Shown piece by piece: positions 7,978 through 17,183 of a stretch of DNA of 34,987 nt; within the stretch, counting starts at the first letter, position 1; the number at the start of each line of letters is the position of its first letter. Origin of the DNA: Candidatus Izemoplasma sp. Lineage in GTDB: Bacteria; Bacillota_I; Bacilli_A; Izemoplasmatales; Izemoplasmataceae. The DNA lies in the NCBI GenBank assembly GCA_007131405.1, contig SLQR01000029.1, forward strand, positions 1-34,987, given 5' to 3'. The position numbers were made by a program, and so were the translations under genes. Under the pieces are notes generated by a model. That model ran no database searches and had not been told where the DNA came from. It saw only the letters and a list, made by a program, of their open reading frames with translations.

Positions 7978-9355
7978 GTCTTAAGTGCTGTTTTTCTTTT
8001 AAGGTTTTCATCTCGAATCGATACATAATGTATGAAATTGTACCGGTAATGAGATCCGCTAAGAAGAACGTCCACCAGATTCCCTCAACACCCATAAAAT
8101 GCGTCAGCAACAAAGCAATGGGAATAAAGGCAATAAAGCGTCGAGACAGGGCGATAAAGAAAGCCCGTGTTGCAAAGCCCATGGCTTGATACACACTTGA
8201 TAAAATGACTTGGAAGGTAATAAATGAAAACCCAAGCGCAACAATTCTAAAGGCATAAGCACCATGTTCAATAAAGTATTGATTGCCTTCGCGTTCGAAG
8301 AGCCCAAATAACTGTTCGGCAAACACCATCACAATAAAGAAGACAACGGTGAAGTAAATAAACAACATTTTAGAGGTCTGCCGGATGACGTCAAAGACTC
8401 GGTCATGGAATTGAGCACCAAAGTTAAATCCGACAATTGGAATCATTCCTTGAACGAGCCCGAATCCAGGCATCAGACTAAACCGGAGAAGTCGGTTAAT
8501 GACCCCATAAATTGAAATGTAAATTGCAGGGTCACCGACCGCATAGCGGTTAATTAGGTTGTTGACAATGATAATAAGCACACCACCCATCGCGGTACGC
8601 ACAAAGGATGGCAAGCCAATGGCTATTATCTCTTTTACCATGGAAAAATCGATTTTATACAGTGTTTTTAAATCAATAATTAAAGACGATTTCGGTTGCA
8701 TTGCGCGACTAAAGACATAGACAAACGAGAAGGTTTTCCCAATTGCTGTGGCAAGTGCTGCCCCAGAAACACCCATACCAAGACCCCAATCAAAAATAAA
8801 GATTGGATCGAGCACAATGTTCACAATGGCACCAATCATCAACGATATCATCGCCACTTTTGGTCGCCCTTCGGCGCGTGTTAAGTTATTAAATGTAATG
8901 GACAATGAAAAAGGCACTAAGGCAATTAAAATAATGCTTAAGTATTCACGCGCAAACCCAATGTTGCTTGCGGTTGCGCCAAAAAGCGTAAGCAAAGGAT
9001 CTAAAAATATAAAGGCAAGCACAGAAATCGTTAAGGTTAAACTAAAATTCATCACAAGCGCGGTATTGACCGCGCGCTTCATCGCTTTTTCATCCCCACG
9101 CCCAAAGGCACGCGAGAAGATGGATGCACTCCCAATCCCAATCATCATACCAATCGCCAAAACAATCATTTGAATTGGGTAAGCGATGGTTAAAGCGCCA
9201 ATGGCTAGTTGACCCGATCCCCAAGCCACAAAAAAAGTATCTACTAAATTGTAGAGAGCATTTATAATCATTGCTGCTGTGGCAGGCACAGCGAGCTTAA
9301 AAAGCAGTTTTTTAATTTGCATGTTGCCGAGCATATCGTGGTTTTGTCTATTCAT
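7964..9355 (-). CDS. MATE family multidrug/cation efflux transporter
   Basis: 463 residues from the ATG at 9353-9355, chosen because GGGAGTGG lies just upstream; the frame extends 26 codons further without a good site. Twelve transmembrane helices in two halves. The first half has LYNLVDTFFVAWGSGQLAIG, a hallmark of the DinF/NorM-like bacterial MATE branch, and the N-terminal LAVPATAAMIINAL helix. Length is standard (440-470). It probably exports organic cations or drugs in exchange for Na+ or H+; the coupling ion cannot be assigned. It is a single-gene unit read against its neighbour. Confidence 0.9.
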   Translation of the reverse strand: MNRQNHDMLGNMQIKKLLFKLAVPATAAMIINALYNLVDTFFVAWGSGQLAIGALTIAYPIQMIVLAIGMMIGIGSASIFSRAFGRGDEKAMKRAVNTALVMNFSLTLTISVLAFIFLDPLLTLFGATASNIGFAREYLSIILIALVPFSLSITFNNLTRAEGRPKVAMISLMIGAIVNIVLDPIFIFDWGLGMGVSGAALATAIGKTFSFVYVFSRAMQPKSSLIIDLKTLYKIDFSMVKEIIAIGLPSFVRTAMGGVLIIIVNNLINRYAVGDPAIYISIYGVINRLLRFSLMPGFGLVQGMIPIVGFNFGAQFHDRVFDVIRQTSKMLFIYFTVVFFIVMVFAEQLFGLFEREGNQYFIEHGAYAFRIVALGFSFITFQVILSSVYQAMGFATRAFFIALSRRFIAFIPIALLLTHFMGVEGIWWTFFLADLITGTISYIMYRFEMKTLKEKQHLRQKTA

Positions 9356-9465
9356 AATGTCCACTCCCAAAATTATTATAACATGTGATTTATATTTGTT
9401 AAGGGCTTGACTAAAATTCAATAAAAAATGCAATTAACCTAGGGCTAAAAAACGCATAAAGCAAA

Positions 9466-9499
9466 TAAAAAGGACTCAAACCACAAAGGGTGAGTCCTT
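9466..9499 (-). terminator. Rho-independent terminator (minus strand)
   Basis: Stem AAGGACTCA (9470-9478) / TGAGTCCTT (9491-9499) with a 12-base loop. Read on the minus strand it ends in TTTTT, so it ends the 9505-9792 gene. Nothing else is clear in the ~150 bases between the two minus-strand genes. Confidence 0.75.
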
Positions 9500-9504
9500 G
9501 ATTG

Positions 9505-9792
9505 TTATGCCGCATAAAACAATTGCGTGACAAACCACGAAAGTGGAATGGCTAAAAACATGATGAGAATCGATAGACGGAACCGTTTAAGCAACGGCTT
9601 TGGCACATGAAAGAAATGCAGGATAATAACGGTCACGATGTATAAAACCCCTAAGAATGGCATGCCATACATCACCAAGAGCCCATACTGATGTTGCGCA
9701 AAGACAAGAAAGAAACCTAATGCGAATAAGGGGATGGCAGTAAAACCGATAACGAAACCAATAACAAGCGGTAATATTGGTGCTAGCTTCAT
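9505..9792 (-). CDS. Small three-helix membrane protein, unknown
   Basis: 95 residues starting MKLAPILP from the ATG at 9790-9792, just downstream of a GAGGTGA site. Three hydrophobic helices: about 5-30, 38-60 and 72-92; the KPLLKRFR stretch forms a basic cytoplasmic loop. The family is not recognised. It has its own terminator and divergent neighbours, so it seems to be transcribed alone. Confidence 0.65.
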   Translation of the reverse strand: MKLAPILPLVIGFVIGFTAIPLFALGFFLVFAQHQYGLLVMYGMPFLGVLYIVTVIILHFFHVPKPLLKRFRLSILIMFLAIPLSWFVTQLFYAA

Positions 9793-9866
9793 CAAATCAC
9801 CTCATGTTTAGTATAAACCGATTCCCAATAAGTAAAAAGGGATAAGCATAGCGTTTTCGATAGGTA

Positions 9867-9905
9867 TTGAAAAATCGGATTATCCATTTTATAATATGGT
9901 ATAAT
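9867..9905 (+). promoter_or_regulatory. Promoter(s) of the mini-thioredoxin gene
   Basis: TTGAAA (9867-9872), 17-base spacer and TATAAT (9890-9895) form a near-consensus sigma-A promoter. A second, extended -10 (TGGTATAAT, 9897-9905) overlaps it ten bases on. Confidence 0.65.
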
Positions 9906-13269: not shown

Positions 13270-13288
13270 CCAATGGGTTACTTTTTTT
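13264..13288. terminator. Bidirectional terminator between ohr and DUF1295 genes
   Basis: Arms AAGTAGCC / GGTTACTT (one G-T pair), 4-base loop, seven T on the plus strand and a T-rich stretch on the minus strand. It overlaps the stops of both convergent genes. Confidence 0.7.
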
Positions 13289-14069
13289 GTGGCAATGGAA
13301 AAAACACATTGGTGCGCGCTTTATACGCTTCAAAATCGTCGCGTCCTTTATAGCGCTTTTCAAGCAATGGCACCCCAGAAACAAAACGCACAAGCACCGT
13401 AATTAAGATTGGGGACATAAGACCAATCAGACCCATTAAAGACGGTGAAGCCATCATTAGAATAAAAATTCCCCACCACATAAGGGATTCACCAAAATAG
13501 TTTGGGTGGCGTGTGTATTGCCAAAGCCCACTTTGCATTATTTTCCCTTTATTATCTGGGTTTTGTTTAAACTGCTTGAGTTGACGGTCACCGACTGATT
13601 GAAAGAAGAACCCAATGACCCAAAGACCAATCCCACTACCAAGAAGCACTATATATAGTGTATCGACTTGATAGGTTATACGCGAAGCAAGCATAATCGG
13701 GAGAGCAATGATATACAGCAGTATTGCTTGAAGCATAAAGACTTTTCCATACGCAGCGAAACGCGGGTAACGCCAGTTTTGACGCATCGCTTTATACCGT
13801 GGGTCTTCACCTTGTTTACGGTTGCGCTTAAAAATATAAAAACTCAAACGGAGTCCCCACACAAGCACAAAAAAGGTGATAAGCCATTGCACGAGTTCGA
13901 TCGAACTACTTGTTATAAACTGGTGCACTAGGGCGGTTAATGCAATAACGATAAACCCCAGTCCCCAAGCAATATCGGCAACGGAGTAATCGTTCTTGAT
14001 TAACGCAACAAGATATATTAGATGAAAAAACAAAAATAAACTGATTCCACTATAAATAAATTCCATCAT
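13278..14069 (-). CDS. DUF1295 membrane protein (steroid 5-alpha-reductase-like)
   Basis: 263 residues, six or seven transmembrane helices. The C-terminal half has the DUF1295/ICMT-like cofactor region: [20 protein letters not shown] (about 180-199), followed by [20 protein letters not shown]. These R-H-P-N-Y and E-K-R motifs bind NADPH in steroid 5-alpha-reductase/ergosterol-reductase relatives. It therefore probably reduces a double bond of a lipid or isoprenoid in the membrane. It begins one base after the stop of the DUF2177 gene (TGACATG), so the two are translationally coupled. The exact substrate is unknown. Confidence 0.85.
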
Positions 14070-14070
14070 G

Positions 14071-14475
14071 TCACATCCAAATCCATTGATATATTAAATA
14101 ACTAAAAACGCTGGTCATTGCACCAAGTGTCGTCCCCCATGCAAGATCAATTGCGGTGATTTTTAAGGGCCAGTTTTCAAGCGTGGCCAGGTTCGTTAAA
14201 TCGTAGGTTGCATAGGTAATGAAACCAAACAATCCCCCAACTAATAAAGCGTAGTGCCATTGGCCTTTATCAACCGCGGGCATTAATACAAAGAAAACAA
14301 TGCCGCCGATAAAGAGTAAGTAAAATAGCATCGCAGCAAGCCACTTAACACGCGTTGCCATTAGGTGACCAAGATAGTGCTTGTATACGTTTTTAGCAAT
14401 CACGCCAAGCCAAAGCATATCGATTAGAAAAAAGATGATAAATGTAATGAGATAAAGTTTGAAAAATAACAACAT
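14071..14475 (-). CDS. DUF2177 family membrane protein
   Basis: 134 residues from the ATG at 14473-14475, chosen for the AAAGGAGGGG site; the frame is open 24 codons further without one. Four transmembrane helices. The segment [20 protein letters not shown] followed by [13 protein letters not shown] (about 84-116) is the DUF2177 signature, with conserved Asp/Thr/Trp inside the membrane. The function is not established. It forms a two-gene operon with the DUF1295 protein; the families are also neighbours in other bacteria, often with lipid-modifying genes, so a joint role in membrane lipid modification is a reasonable inference. Confidence 0.85.
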
Positions 14476-14574
14476 AACAACCCCTCCTTTTATTACTTTA
14501 ATCATATCATGAAAACGAAAAAATGCATCGTGTGTGCTTGAAAACAAAAAAAATCTTTAAATGATGACTATATT

Positions 14575-14583
14575 TGGTATAAT
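14575..14583 (+). promoter_or_regulatory. Extended -10 promoter of the DUF1576 operon
   Basis: TGGTATAAT (14575-14583), 32 bases before the start at 14615. No good -35 is visible. It lies in the divergent gap between the DUF2177 and DUF1576 genes. Confidence 0.6.
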
Positions 14584-14614: not shown

Positions 14615-15895
14615 ATGATTAATCTTTACAGAGCACTCAAGAAAAAAATGATGTTACCAATGATTTTTATTGTTTTATTCACGATGGCCTTTCTTTTTGA
14701 TGATCTTTCCTCAATTGCTCAAGGCTATTTAAACATTCTTCAAAGTCCGAGTGTATTAATTAGCGATTACTTGCACATTGGTGGACTTGGCGCAACGTTA
14801 TTTAATGTTGCGACCATTATGCTTATTAATATTTTGATGCTCCGCGCTTTGAAACTAAAAATGTCTGGACCCATCTTTGCAGGCTTGTTAACGATTGCTG
14901 GGTTTAGTTTTTTTGGAAAGAACATTTTTAATACAATTCCTATTTACTTCGGTATTTACTTGCATGCTAGGCATCAACGTTTACCGTTTAAATCGTTTAT
15001 TATTGTTGTGTTGTTTTCAACCGGGATTTCACCCATTGTTAGCTTCTTAATTTTTGGAACGGGATGGCCATACTATATTGGGATTCCTGCCGGGACAGCG
15101 GCCGGGATATTGACAGGCTTTACGTTGCCGGCCATTAGTGCTCATGTGATTCGCTTTCATAAAGGATATAACCTATATAACATCGGGTTTGCGATGGGTA
15201 TTTTGTCGATGCTTTATGCGGCAATACTCACGACGTTATTTGGGTTTGATCTATTCGTGTTTGAATCGACCACCAGCGAAGCCTACCACACCGAACTGTT
15301 GGTATTAACATTAATATTATCAGGAATTTTTATTGCGAGCGGGTTTATAAACGACCCACACGTCTTAAAAAAATACCCCAAGCTTTTAAACAGCACAGGA
15401 CGCCTTGTATCCGACTTTATTCGTGACGCGGGACGGGATATTTCCATGGTTAATGTTGGTGTTATGGGACTGATATCCGTGCTCGCCATTACGGTATTAA
15501 GGATTCAAATCAACGGCGCAGTCATGGGTGGAATATTGACGGTCATGGGCTTTGGCGCTTTTGGGAAACATCCGCGCAACTCAATTCCGGTTATGCTTGG
15601 GGCGTCTATATGGTTCTTATTAAGCCCAATCGTAACGGGCGAAGAAGCAGGCGTTGGCCTTGCCATTGCGGTGTTGTTTGTGACCGCAGTTGCACCGATT
15701 GCGGGACGTTTTGGTATTTTTCTCGGTATATTTGCCGGATTTGTCCACATTGTCTTAACGCCGTTTACTTACGTCTTTCAAGGCGGATTCGATTTATACA
15801 ACAATGGGTTCGCAGCTGGGTTCGTTGCAGCTTTGCTTGTTCCTGTTTTTGAATTTTTAACGAAAAAGAAGGAAGTTGAAGAAGGAGAGGCTTAA
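14615..15895 (+). CDS. DUF1576 multi-pass membrane protein with internal duplication
   Basis: 426 residues from the ATG at 14615, after AAGGGAG; the frame extends 18 codons upstream but that stretch overlaps the promoter. About ten or more hydrophobic helices. Two similar halves are visible: GPIFAGLLTIAGFSFFGKNI (85-104) matches GAVMGGILTVMGFGAFGKHP (301-320), both continuing N-x-IP; GYNLYNIGFAMG (184-195) matches GFDLYNNGFAAG (391-402). This is a direct duplication with about a 210-residue period, a design typical of channels and transporters. The family has no established function. It leads a four-gene operon with a 116-residue protein, flavodoxin and FMN-binding protein. Confidence 0.85.
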   Translation: MINLYRALKKKMMLPMIFIVLFTMAFLFDDLSSIAQGYLNILQSPSVLISDYLHIGGLGATLFNVATIMLINILMLRALKLKMSGPIFAGLLTIAGFSFFGKNIFNTIPIYFGIYLHARHQRLPFKSFIIVVLFSTGISPIVSFLIFGTGWPYYIGIPAGTAAGILTGFTLPAISAHVIRFHKGYNLYNIGFAMGILSMLYAAILTTLFGFDLFVFESTTSEAYHTELLVLTLILSGIFIASGFINDPHVLKKYPKLLNSTGRLVSDFIRDAGRDISMVNVGVMGLISVLAITVLRIQINGAVMGGILTVMGFGAFGKHPRNSIPVMLGASIWFLLSPIVTGEEAGVGLAIAVLFVTAVAPIAGRFGIFLGIFAGFVHIVLTPFTYVFQGGFDLYNNGFAAGFVAALLVPVFEFLTKKKEVEEGEA

Positions 15896-15896
15896 G

Positions 15897-16247
15897 ATGA
15901 ATAACCAAGAAGTTAAAATCATTTCAAAGATTATTCGCGAATTAAGTCACTATGTGATGATTCACGGGTATAAAAACTACACACTCGAAACCCGCATCGA
16001 AGAAAAAGTCACCTATTTTAAACTCAGTATCCAGAACCCTTCCAAAGCGATGCTAGAAAAAATGAAAGAAAAGGTTAGCCGTGAGCGTGAACTTGAAGTT
16101 GAAACGTATGGATGGGAATTGATTGGCGACATCGATGAAAAAACTGAACTTGAAATATTAGGCCTGCTGATTGATGAAATGGTGATTGAGAAAAAAGAAG
16201 ACATGACACACATCACCTTGATTCGCGAAAGTCGTTATAAAGAATAG
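15897..16247 (+). CDS. 116-residue soluble protein, family not recognised
   Basis: Starts at the ATG at 15897, one base after the DUF1576 stop; its site GAAGGAGAGG lies inside the end of that gene, so the two are coupled. An in-frame TTG at 15876 is less likely. The protein is charged, without membrane segments. A helix (IISKIIRELSHYVMIHGY) is followed by alternating strands (YTLETRIEEKVTYFKLSIQN), a basic helix, a third strand-like VETYGWELIGDI, and ITLIRESRYKE. The order loosely recalls an alpha/beta sandwich such as a partial HATPase-like fold, but no nucleotide motif is present. It may be a cytoplasmic partner of the DUF1576 protein. Confidence 0.7.
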   Translation: MNNQEVKIISKIIRELSHYVMIHGYKNYTLETRIEEKVTYFKLSIQNPSKAMLEKMKEKVSRERELEVETYGWELIGDIDEKTELEILGLLIDEMVIEKKEDMTHITLIRESRYKE

Positions 16248-16256
16248 GGGAGTACG

Positions 16257-16751
16257 ATGCAAATTGCTGTTGTTTATGTTAGCAATACAGGGGTCACGGA
16301 AACGGTCGTGGATAAGCTGAAAAAAGCGACGAAGAAAACACTATCGGTCTACAATGTAAAAAATGAAGACCCAGAGATGAGATTGTCGGATGTGGTCATT
16401 ATTGCCGCACCAGTCTACATCGGCCGTACGCATAAGCTAATGCGGAAATGGGTGAAAAAACATCAAGATGTGTTAAAGCGTAAACACCTTATTTTTGTCT
16501 TAGTTGGTGGGGAGGAAACTGTCAACCCACTCGATACGTTAAAAAATTCATACCCAGAAGCCATCCTTAAAAAACACCATAGTGTGTATCACTGTGGAGG
16601 CGAATTTCGTTTTGAGCGCATGGGCTTCTTTCGCCGATTCCTCATTAAGTTAGTGATTAAAAGCAAACAAAAAGAGTCTGGGTCGGATGCTCTGCCAACC
16701 TTAAATCAATCGAGCATCAATGCACTGACAAAGGCGATTGATGCCTTATGA
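16257..16751 (+). CDS. Flavodoxin-domain protein
   Basis: 164 residues with the FMN phosphate-binding loop at residues 9-15 (SNTGVTE) after strand MQIAVVYV, strand LSDVVIIAAPVYIGRTHKLM around 43-62, and LIFVLVGGEE near 83-92. It belongs to the Flavodoxin_5 / HemG-like group rather than the long-chain flavodoxins. It carries FMN and shuttles electrons in the cytoplasm. The C-terminal part has a basic stretch (RRFLIKLVIKSKQK) that could sit at the membrane. Its stop overlaps the next start (ATGA), so it is coupled to the FMN-binding protein, a plausible redox partner. It starts 9 bases after the 116-residue gene. Confidence 0.85.
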   Translation: MQIAVVYVSNTGVTETVVDKLKKATKKTLSVYNVKNEDPEMRLSDVVIIAAPVYIGRTHKLMRKWVKKHQDVLKRKHLIFVLVGGEETVNPLDTLKNSYPEAILKKHHSVYHCGGEFRFERMGFFRRFLIKLVIKSKQKESGSDALPTLNQSSINALTKAIDAL

Positions 16752-17143
16752 GACGTGTGATAGCCTCGCTCGCCATCTTTGCAGGTATTGTGTTTCTTGT
16801 GATTGGTACATTCATGTTTATGTTGCTTCGCAATCAACAAACCGTCTTAAATGAAACCATTGAGCCCATTGAATTTCAAACACTAACCGATGGTATCTAT
16901 GAAGGTACTTACCACGGAACTCGTTGGGAAAATACCGTCCGAGTTACCATCGCAGAGGGTAAAATTATTGCCATTGAAGTGCTTGATGATATGATGATTG
17001 TTGATGATTTTGTTCAAGCTCAACTCTTTATTCGTGTTAAAGAAGCTGAGTCACTTGATGTCGATGCAATTAGTGGCGCCACGATTTCAAGCACCGCTTA
17101 TCTCAAAGCCATTGAAGATGCTTTGCTTCAAGCAAAAAAATAA
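16748..17143 (+). CDS. Membrane-anchored FMN-binding protein, covalent flavin motif
   Basis: 131 residues: a short basic N-terminus and one transmembrane anchor (4-27), then an FMN_bind domain on the outer side (about 48-130). The flavinylation motif is intact: Asp106-x-x-Ser109-Gly110-Ala111-Thr112, followed by ISS. By analogy with NqrC/RnfG, Thr112 is the residue to which ApbE attaches FMN by a phosphoester bond. It overlaps the flavodoxin gene by four bases. Probably an extracytosolic one-flavin electron carrier, receiving electrons from a membrane partner. No ApbE gene is in the window. A terminator closes the operon. Confidence 0.87.
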   Translation: MRRVIASLAIFAGIVFLVIGTFMFMLLRNQQTVLNETIEPIEFQTLTDGIYEGTYHGTRWENTVRVTIAEGKIIAIEVLDDMMIVDDFVQAQLFIRVKEAESLDVDAISGATISSTAYLKAIEDALLQAKK

Positions 17144-17145
17144 AT

Positions 17146-17183
17146 AAAACCCCTTATTTTTGTGAAAAAATAAAGGGTTTTTT
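17146..17183. terminator. Bidirectional terminator between FMN-binding gene and rnhC
   Basis: A 16-base stem with one mismatch (17146-17161 with 17166-17181), short loop, with A/T tracts on both sides; serves both convergent genes. Confidence 0.8.

Follow-up and report, generated by a model that had tools for sequence, protein, structure and literature searches.

The question raised by this locus is what a duplicated membrane protein of a family to which Pfam assigns no function (DUF1576, PF07613), and which is mentioned in no paper of the literature searched, does in the same operon as two flavin genes. The window, i.e., the whole stretch of DNA analysed (34,987 nucleotides), comes from Candidatus Izemoplasma, which is related to the wall-less bacteria, and belongs to a genome of 1.46 Mb that is distributed over 118 contigs and is 86% complete, and the closest relatives of its DUF1576 protein are found in Candidatus Izimaplasma MAGs. 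Four genes of the + strand occupy positions 14615-17143, with one base, nine bases and, finally, a four-base overlap at their junctions. The first-pass annotation described them as a coupled operon under one extended -10 promoter and one terminator, and suggested a transmembrane flavin electron-transfer or redox-coupled transport system. The features of this region are the following:

14556..14583, + strand: likely promoter, TTTAAA-16-TATAAT, the -10 being extended by TG, assigned by position
14615..15895, + strand: DUF1576 membrane protein, 426 aa (PF07613, 329.4 bits)
15897..16247, + strand: 116-aa protein, predicted cytosolic, without Pfam or NCBIfam family, characterised by its occurrence with DUF1576 and its predicted fold
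16257..16751, + strand: Flavodoxin_5 (HemG-like) flavodoxin, 164 aa (PF12724, 80.1 bits)
16748..17143, + strand: FMN_bind protein, 131 aa, with one N-terminal membrane helix and an extracytosolic domain (PF04205, 40.6 bits)
17146..17181, no strand assigned: terminator-like inverted repeat of 16 pairs, bidirectional

The four-gene operon is real. Its order and spacing are borne out by the coordinates and the Pfam assignments, and the layout is found again in relatives and, therefore, is not due to chance. The 16-pair repeat agrees with the single terminator proposed and is common to the operon and to the convergent RNase HIII gene downstream. The promoter fared less well: although it ranks in the top two by score and lies where a promoter of this operon is expected, eight promoter-like sites were observed in the region versus 7.8 by chance. 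Upstream, divergent genes for a DUF1295 (steroid-dehydrogenase-like) and a DUF2177 membrane protein are located one base apart (13278-14482), and divergent genes of similar size are also present upstream in some loci of the same genus (L084, L086).

A survey of 392 phylum genomes, 49 family genomes and a genome collection yielded 141 DUF1576 loci, 109 of them distinct, whose neighbours were labelled by calling open reading frames and then applying iterated profiles. The DUF1576 tree comprised 105 proteins, and the motif, loop-charge and Pfam cross-match sets 104 sequences. The protein of the window matches the family over its full length, far above the PF07613 cut-off (25 bits) and in two stretches that include both repeats, with the same domain order as all relatives. 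Viral contigs contained no relatives, and weak PF07613 matches in other proteins (G248, G251, G145 and G430) were attributed to chance after inspection, as they corresponded to flippase-, glycosyltransferase-, ABC-permease- and antiporter-like proteins.

The 116-aa protein, which the first-pass annotation had treated as incidental, turned out to be the constant partner of DUF1576. A homologue is encoded near 69 of the 109 distinct loci, generally as the gene that immediately follows DUF1576, and the two genes usually overlap or abut, often with overlaps of 1-4 bases, from Bacilli to Clostridia; the unit also occurs in two MAGs named Chloroflexi/Anaerolineaceae. Moreover, the 116-aa family was detected in 19 of the 392 phylum genomes, every one of which carries DUF1576, and always at the DUF1576 locus, while a further match in G272 (E 2e-4, within a 267-aa frame) was taken as spurious. 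No other operon partner recurs: among 69 neighbours, 98 Pfam families are represented, and none of these was seen in more than three members. Thus, the 116-aa protein is an obligate companion of DUF1576, and the two proteins constitute the system. Conversely, 40 of the 109 distinct loci have no 116-aa protein nearby, so DUF1576 can act alone or with a diverged partner. Given that DUF1576 goes unmentioned in the literature searched, neither the obligate partner nor the flavin variant seems to have been described. At L077 and L055, DUF1576 is in pieces in one genome (G211), where the 116-aa gene is retained, and split into two frames in another (G158), which could reflect a decaying copy or an assembly error.

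By sequence profile, the 116-aa protein has no significant match in the PDB. Its model (pLDDT 82.8) predicts an alpha-beta-beta-alpha-alpha-alpha-beta-beta domain, and GHKL histidine-kinase ATPase domains account for most of the 50 Foldseek matches listed, with probabilities up to 1.00 and TM about 0.5 but a best E-value of 0.0077, which is not significant. The predicted fold may be the Bergerat fold of GHKL domains such as those of DesK and CheA P4; however, the protein has only 116 residues, and both the asparagine N box and the DxGxG motif (G1 box) involved in ATP binding are absent from the family alignment, in which only M1, I12, R64, E69, Y71, L75, G77, D93 and R110 are near-invariant. 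Therefore, even if the protein is related to GHKL proteins, canonical ATP binding is unlikely.

The internal duplication of DUF1576 that had been noticed in the first pass was confirmed, as two repeats of about 180 aa (about residues 12-209 and 225-416) align with each other with an hhalign probability of 99.9 and an E-value of 1.4e-36. Across 104 sequences, the N terminus and the C-terminal tail are basic, and loop 29-51 is acidic while its counterpart 247-267 is basic. This charge bias indicates that the protein starts and ends in the cytosol and that the first helix of one repeat runs opposite to that of the other, so that, judging from the sequence, the repeats are antiparallel and form an inverted repeat. 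Several polar residues are conserved in both halves (D51/D267, N64/N280, K102/H319, N106/N322 and Y188/Y395), and the motifs S/T-D-Y/F, N, G-F-x-x-F-G-K-N/H-x-x-N-x-x-P and G-Y/F-x-L-Y-N are mirrored between them. The helices predicted around the F-G-K-N motif span 13-17 residues, and the predicted secondary structure, from which the helix count also derives, suggests that they are broken or re-entrant.

No PDB match was obtained for DUF1576 by sequence profile. An AF2 model built from 37 sequences reached a pLDDT of 92.2 and a pTM of 0.92, and its best PDB relatives in Foldseek, ranked by probability, were urea transporters (0.63 and 0.38), followed by ClC and AmtB, although the urea-transporter match is weak (E 0.41 at probability 0.63; TM 0.32-0.38) and no E-value fell below 0.001. 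Like NqrB/RnfD (PF03116) and urea transporters (PF03253), DUF1576 contains two inverted repeats and similar-looking G-x-N-x-x-N stretches; it has, however, no flavinylated threonine motif, and no significant sequence-profile match to these proteins was found. Sequences of urea transporters for the profile comparison were sought in 382 genomes, none exceeding the cut-off. With its antiparallel repeats and mirrored polar motifs, the architecture of DUF1576 is likely of the transporter or channel type, with transport as its presumed activity.

The flavin genes have a far narrower distribution. FMN_bind adjoins nine of the 109 distinct DUF1576 loci, all in one clade (the Candidatus Izimaplasma family), and flavodoxin adjoins four, namely that of the window and three others. 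The expectation that flavin genes would generally accompany DUF1576 homologues was, therefore, largely contradicted: an FMN_bind gene of the operon's kind is absent near 100 distinct loci (91%), and a flavodoxin near 105. On the 105-protein tree, the nine FMN_bind rows form one group (SH-aLRT 86) and require one change, while flavodoxin, missing from five of these nine loci, requires three, which a single gain plus two losses would explain. Each of the nine clade members sampled, from five genera in total, has retained FMN_bind beside the DUF1576-116-aa pair, mostly with start-stop overlaps, and dN/dS values of 0.15-0.16 in two close pairs denote purifying selection. This pattern identifies FMN_bind as a single, late and stably kept addition to the operon, and the single gain, full retention and purifying selection argue that it belongs with DUF1576 in that clade. 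Between the window and L129, identity decreases from DUF1576 (72%, partial) through the 116-aa protein (54%) and FMN_bind (46%) to flavodoxin (28%), as expected of a core and its accessory parts. The flavin part is, therefore, a local accessory of one small branch and not the core of the DUF1576 system. In a relative (L106), the flavodoxin position is empty, and the operon continues behind FMN_bind, after a four-base overlap, with a gene for a hydrophobic, membrane-like protein of 261 aa (9091-9876).

The FMN_bind protein of the window combines an export anchor, i.e., a single N-terminal hydrophobic helix, with an intact D-x-x-[S/T]-G-A-[S/T] motif (DAISGAT, 17063-17083), as the first reading had stated, and matches the solved FMN domain 8p2b (E 4e-6). 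The flavodoxin retains its phosphate loop, SNTGVT, and its best NCBIfam match, a weak one, is PRK11104 HemG. The first reading was right that the membrane protein is flanked by a flavodoxin and by an FMN domain that can be loaded, but DUF1576 is not defined by these genes. All nine clade loci preserve the modified threonine, while the residues preceding it depart from [S/T]GA in five of them (SEAT twice, SGGT, AGST and AGAT). Flavinylation drops to roughly one half upon single G-to-A or A-to-V substitutions and is lost upon T-to-A, whereas G-to-E is not among the substitutions described (review PMC12052999). In view of these partial effects, the altered forms may still be flavinylated, albeit less well. 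The SEAT proteins (L053, 5147-5542; L094, 1660-2055), which are under purifying selection with a dN/dS of 0.15, could possibly function without flavinylation or with poor flavinylation.

ApbE is present in the genome and is encoded on another contig (contig 5, 173.5 bits). Its locus (L078; G000 contig 5, 511-5788) is an RNF-like extracytosolic electron-transfer cluster with RnfC-like, RnfD-like, NusG_II and Hpre_diP_synt_I genes and an FMN_bind-like lipoprotein. The FMN-loading enzyme exists in this genome, but it is likely to have other substrates. Gene clusters associated with flavinylation (Meheust 2021, PMC8238504; Huang 2024, PMC11334425) share three features with this locus, namely an FMN_bind protein whose ApbE motif is intact, an ApbE encoded by the genome and a membrane protein in the operon. 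Unlike in those clusters, the membrane protein is not NapH, MsrQ, PepSY, DsbD, NQR/RNF or DUF4405, apbE lies outside the operon and no cofactor ligands are recognised in DUF1576 (PMC8238504, PMC11334425). Moreover, ApbE was not detected in six DUF1576 genomes that are 96-99% complete, single-contig ones included (G088, G089, G307, G347, G351 and G370), which indicates that flavinylation is not needed for DUF1576 in general.

The reading that best accommodates these results, with a probability of about 0.55, is that transporter-like DUF1576 and the 116-aa protein form a core with a cytosolic regulator, which is redox-tuned by flavin genes in one clade. DUF1576 would function as a transporter or channel, its mirrored polar residues probably lining a central path, and the 116-aa protein would bind it on the cytosolic side and gate or regulate it. 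One Izemoplasma clade acquired two additions to this module, namely an external, membrane-anchored FMN_bind protein, on which the ApbE of the other contig probably acts, and a HemG-like flavodoxin in the cytosol. On the basis of gene order, these two proteins, one on each side of the membrane, most likely respond to the redox state or use it to tune the module.

A bolder form of this proposal, in which the DUF1576-116-aa pair is an undescribed class of inverted-repeat transporters that, in the Izemoplasma clade, is driven or gated by external covalent FMN and cytosolic flavodoxin, and is thus redox-coupled and distinct from NQR and RNF, is considered unlikely. Similarly doubtful is that DUF1576 itself, as a subunit resembling NqrB/RnfD, conducts electrons across the membrane between the cytosolic flavodoxin and the external covalent FMN. 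Such a conduit would fit the presence of ApbE in 36 of 42 DUF1576 genomes versus 112 of 350 others (odds ratio 12.8, uncorrected for relatedness or genome size and not relied upon here), the single gain and retention of FMN_bind and the weakly favoured urea-transporter fold, since the NqrB fold closely resembles urea and ammonium transporters (PMC10643135). However, no PF03116 cross-match was found in 104 DUF1576 sequences, and a relationship with NqrB/RnfD was rejected because hhalign probabilities to RnfD were 7-15% and the full-length score was almost equalled by a control in which both alignments were reversed. In the same 104 sequences no cysteine is conserved, the conserved histidines (182, 319 and 378) include no evident paired ligands, and an SGA[S/T] flavinylation motif is found in one. 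Considering also the six genomes without detectable ApbE, the 91% of loci without such an FMN_bind and the FMN_bind loci without flavodoxin, transmembrane flavin electron transfer was not borne out as the function of DUF1576, and electron transfer through this protein is possible but unsupported.

It is quite improbable that the flavin genes merely share transcription with the pair and serve the RNF/NQR or extracellular electron-transfer machinery of the genome. NQR genes (L079) and RNF genes (L080) are indeed encoded on other contigs, and the RNF-like ApbE/NusG_II locus has its own FMN lipoprotein, but the retention of FMN_bind beside the pair in every clade member sampled argues against mere co-transcription.

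Other DUF1576 lineages have different neighbours, with PAP2 near 12 and UppP near 11 of the 109 distinct loci, and the order UppP-DUF1576-116-aa-PAP2 in 11, mostly in Anaeroplasmataceae-type genomes. In three of the latter loci (L060, 2973-7992; L145; L150), from gut MAGs of the Anaeroplasma/Avacholeplasma type, ApbE-NusG_II-Hpre_diP_synt_I genes follow, a second and separate meeting of DUF1576 with a flavinylation gene set. That DUF1576 is a translocase of polyprenyl phosphate, or its helper, with incidental flavin genes, as this gene order might suggest, is very unlikely, given that the order is almost confined to one clade (two changes for PAP2 on the tree), UppP was not found in the 86%-complete genome of the window and, among the 49 genomes of the family, the distribution of DUF1576 is not complementary to that of DUF368, a known family of C55-P translocases (p 0.21). 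DedA, in turn, is present in most genomes of the family, a distribution equally unsupportive of such a role, and neither DUF368 (PopT) nor DedA (UptA) is related in sequence to DUF1576, as a Pfam scan of 104 members gave no credible match to any other family. These neighbourhoods indicate either that the membrane-side functions attached to the core vary from lineage to lineage or that the core acts on membrane lipids, an option that the distribution tests did not favour.

For a widespread membrane family lacking an assigned function, the analysis pins down an obligate partner, names the conserved residues and the inverted-repeat architecture of DUF1576, and separates the core from a clade-specific flavin accessory. 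The host organism also possesses NQR and RNF, which allows comparison. If the flavin part couples to transport, DUF1576 would extend the range of membrane components that are linked to the flavinylation of proteins.
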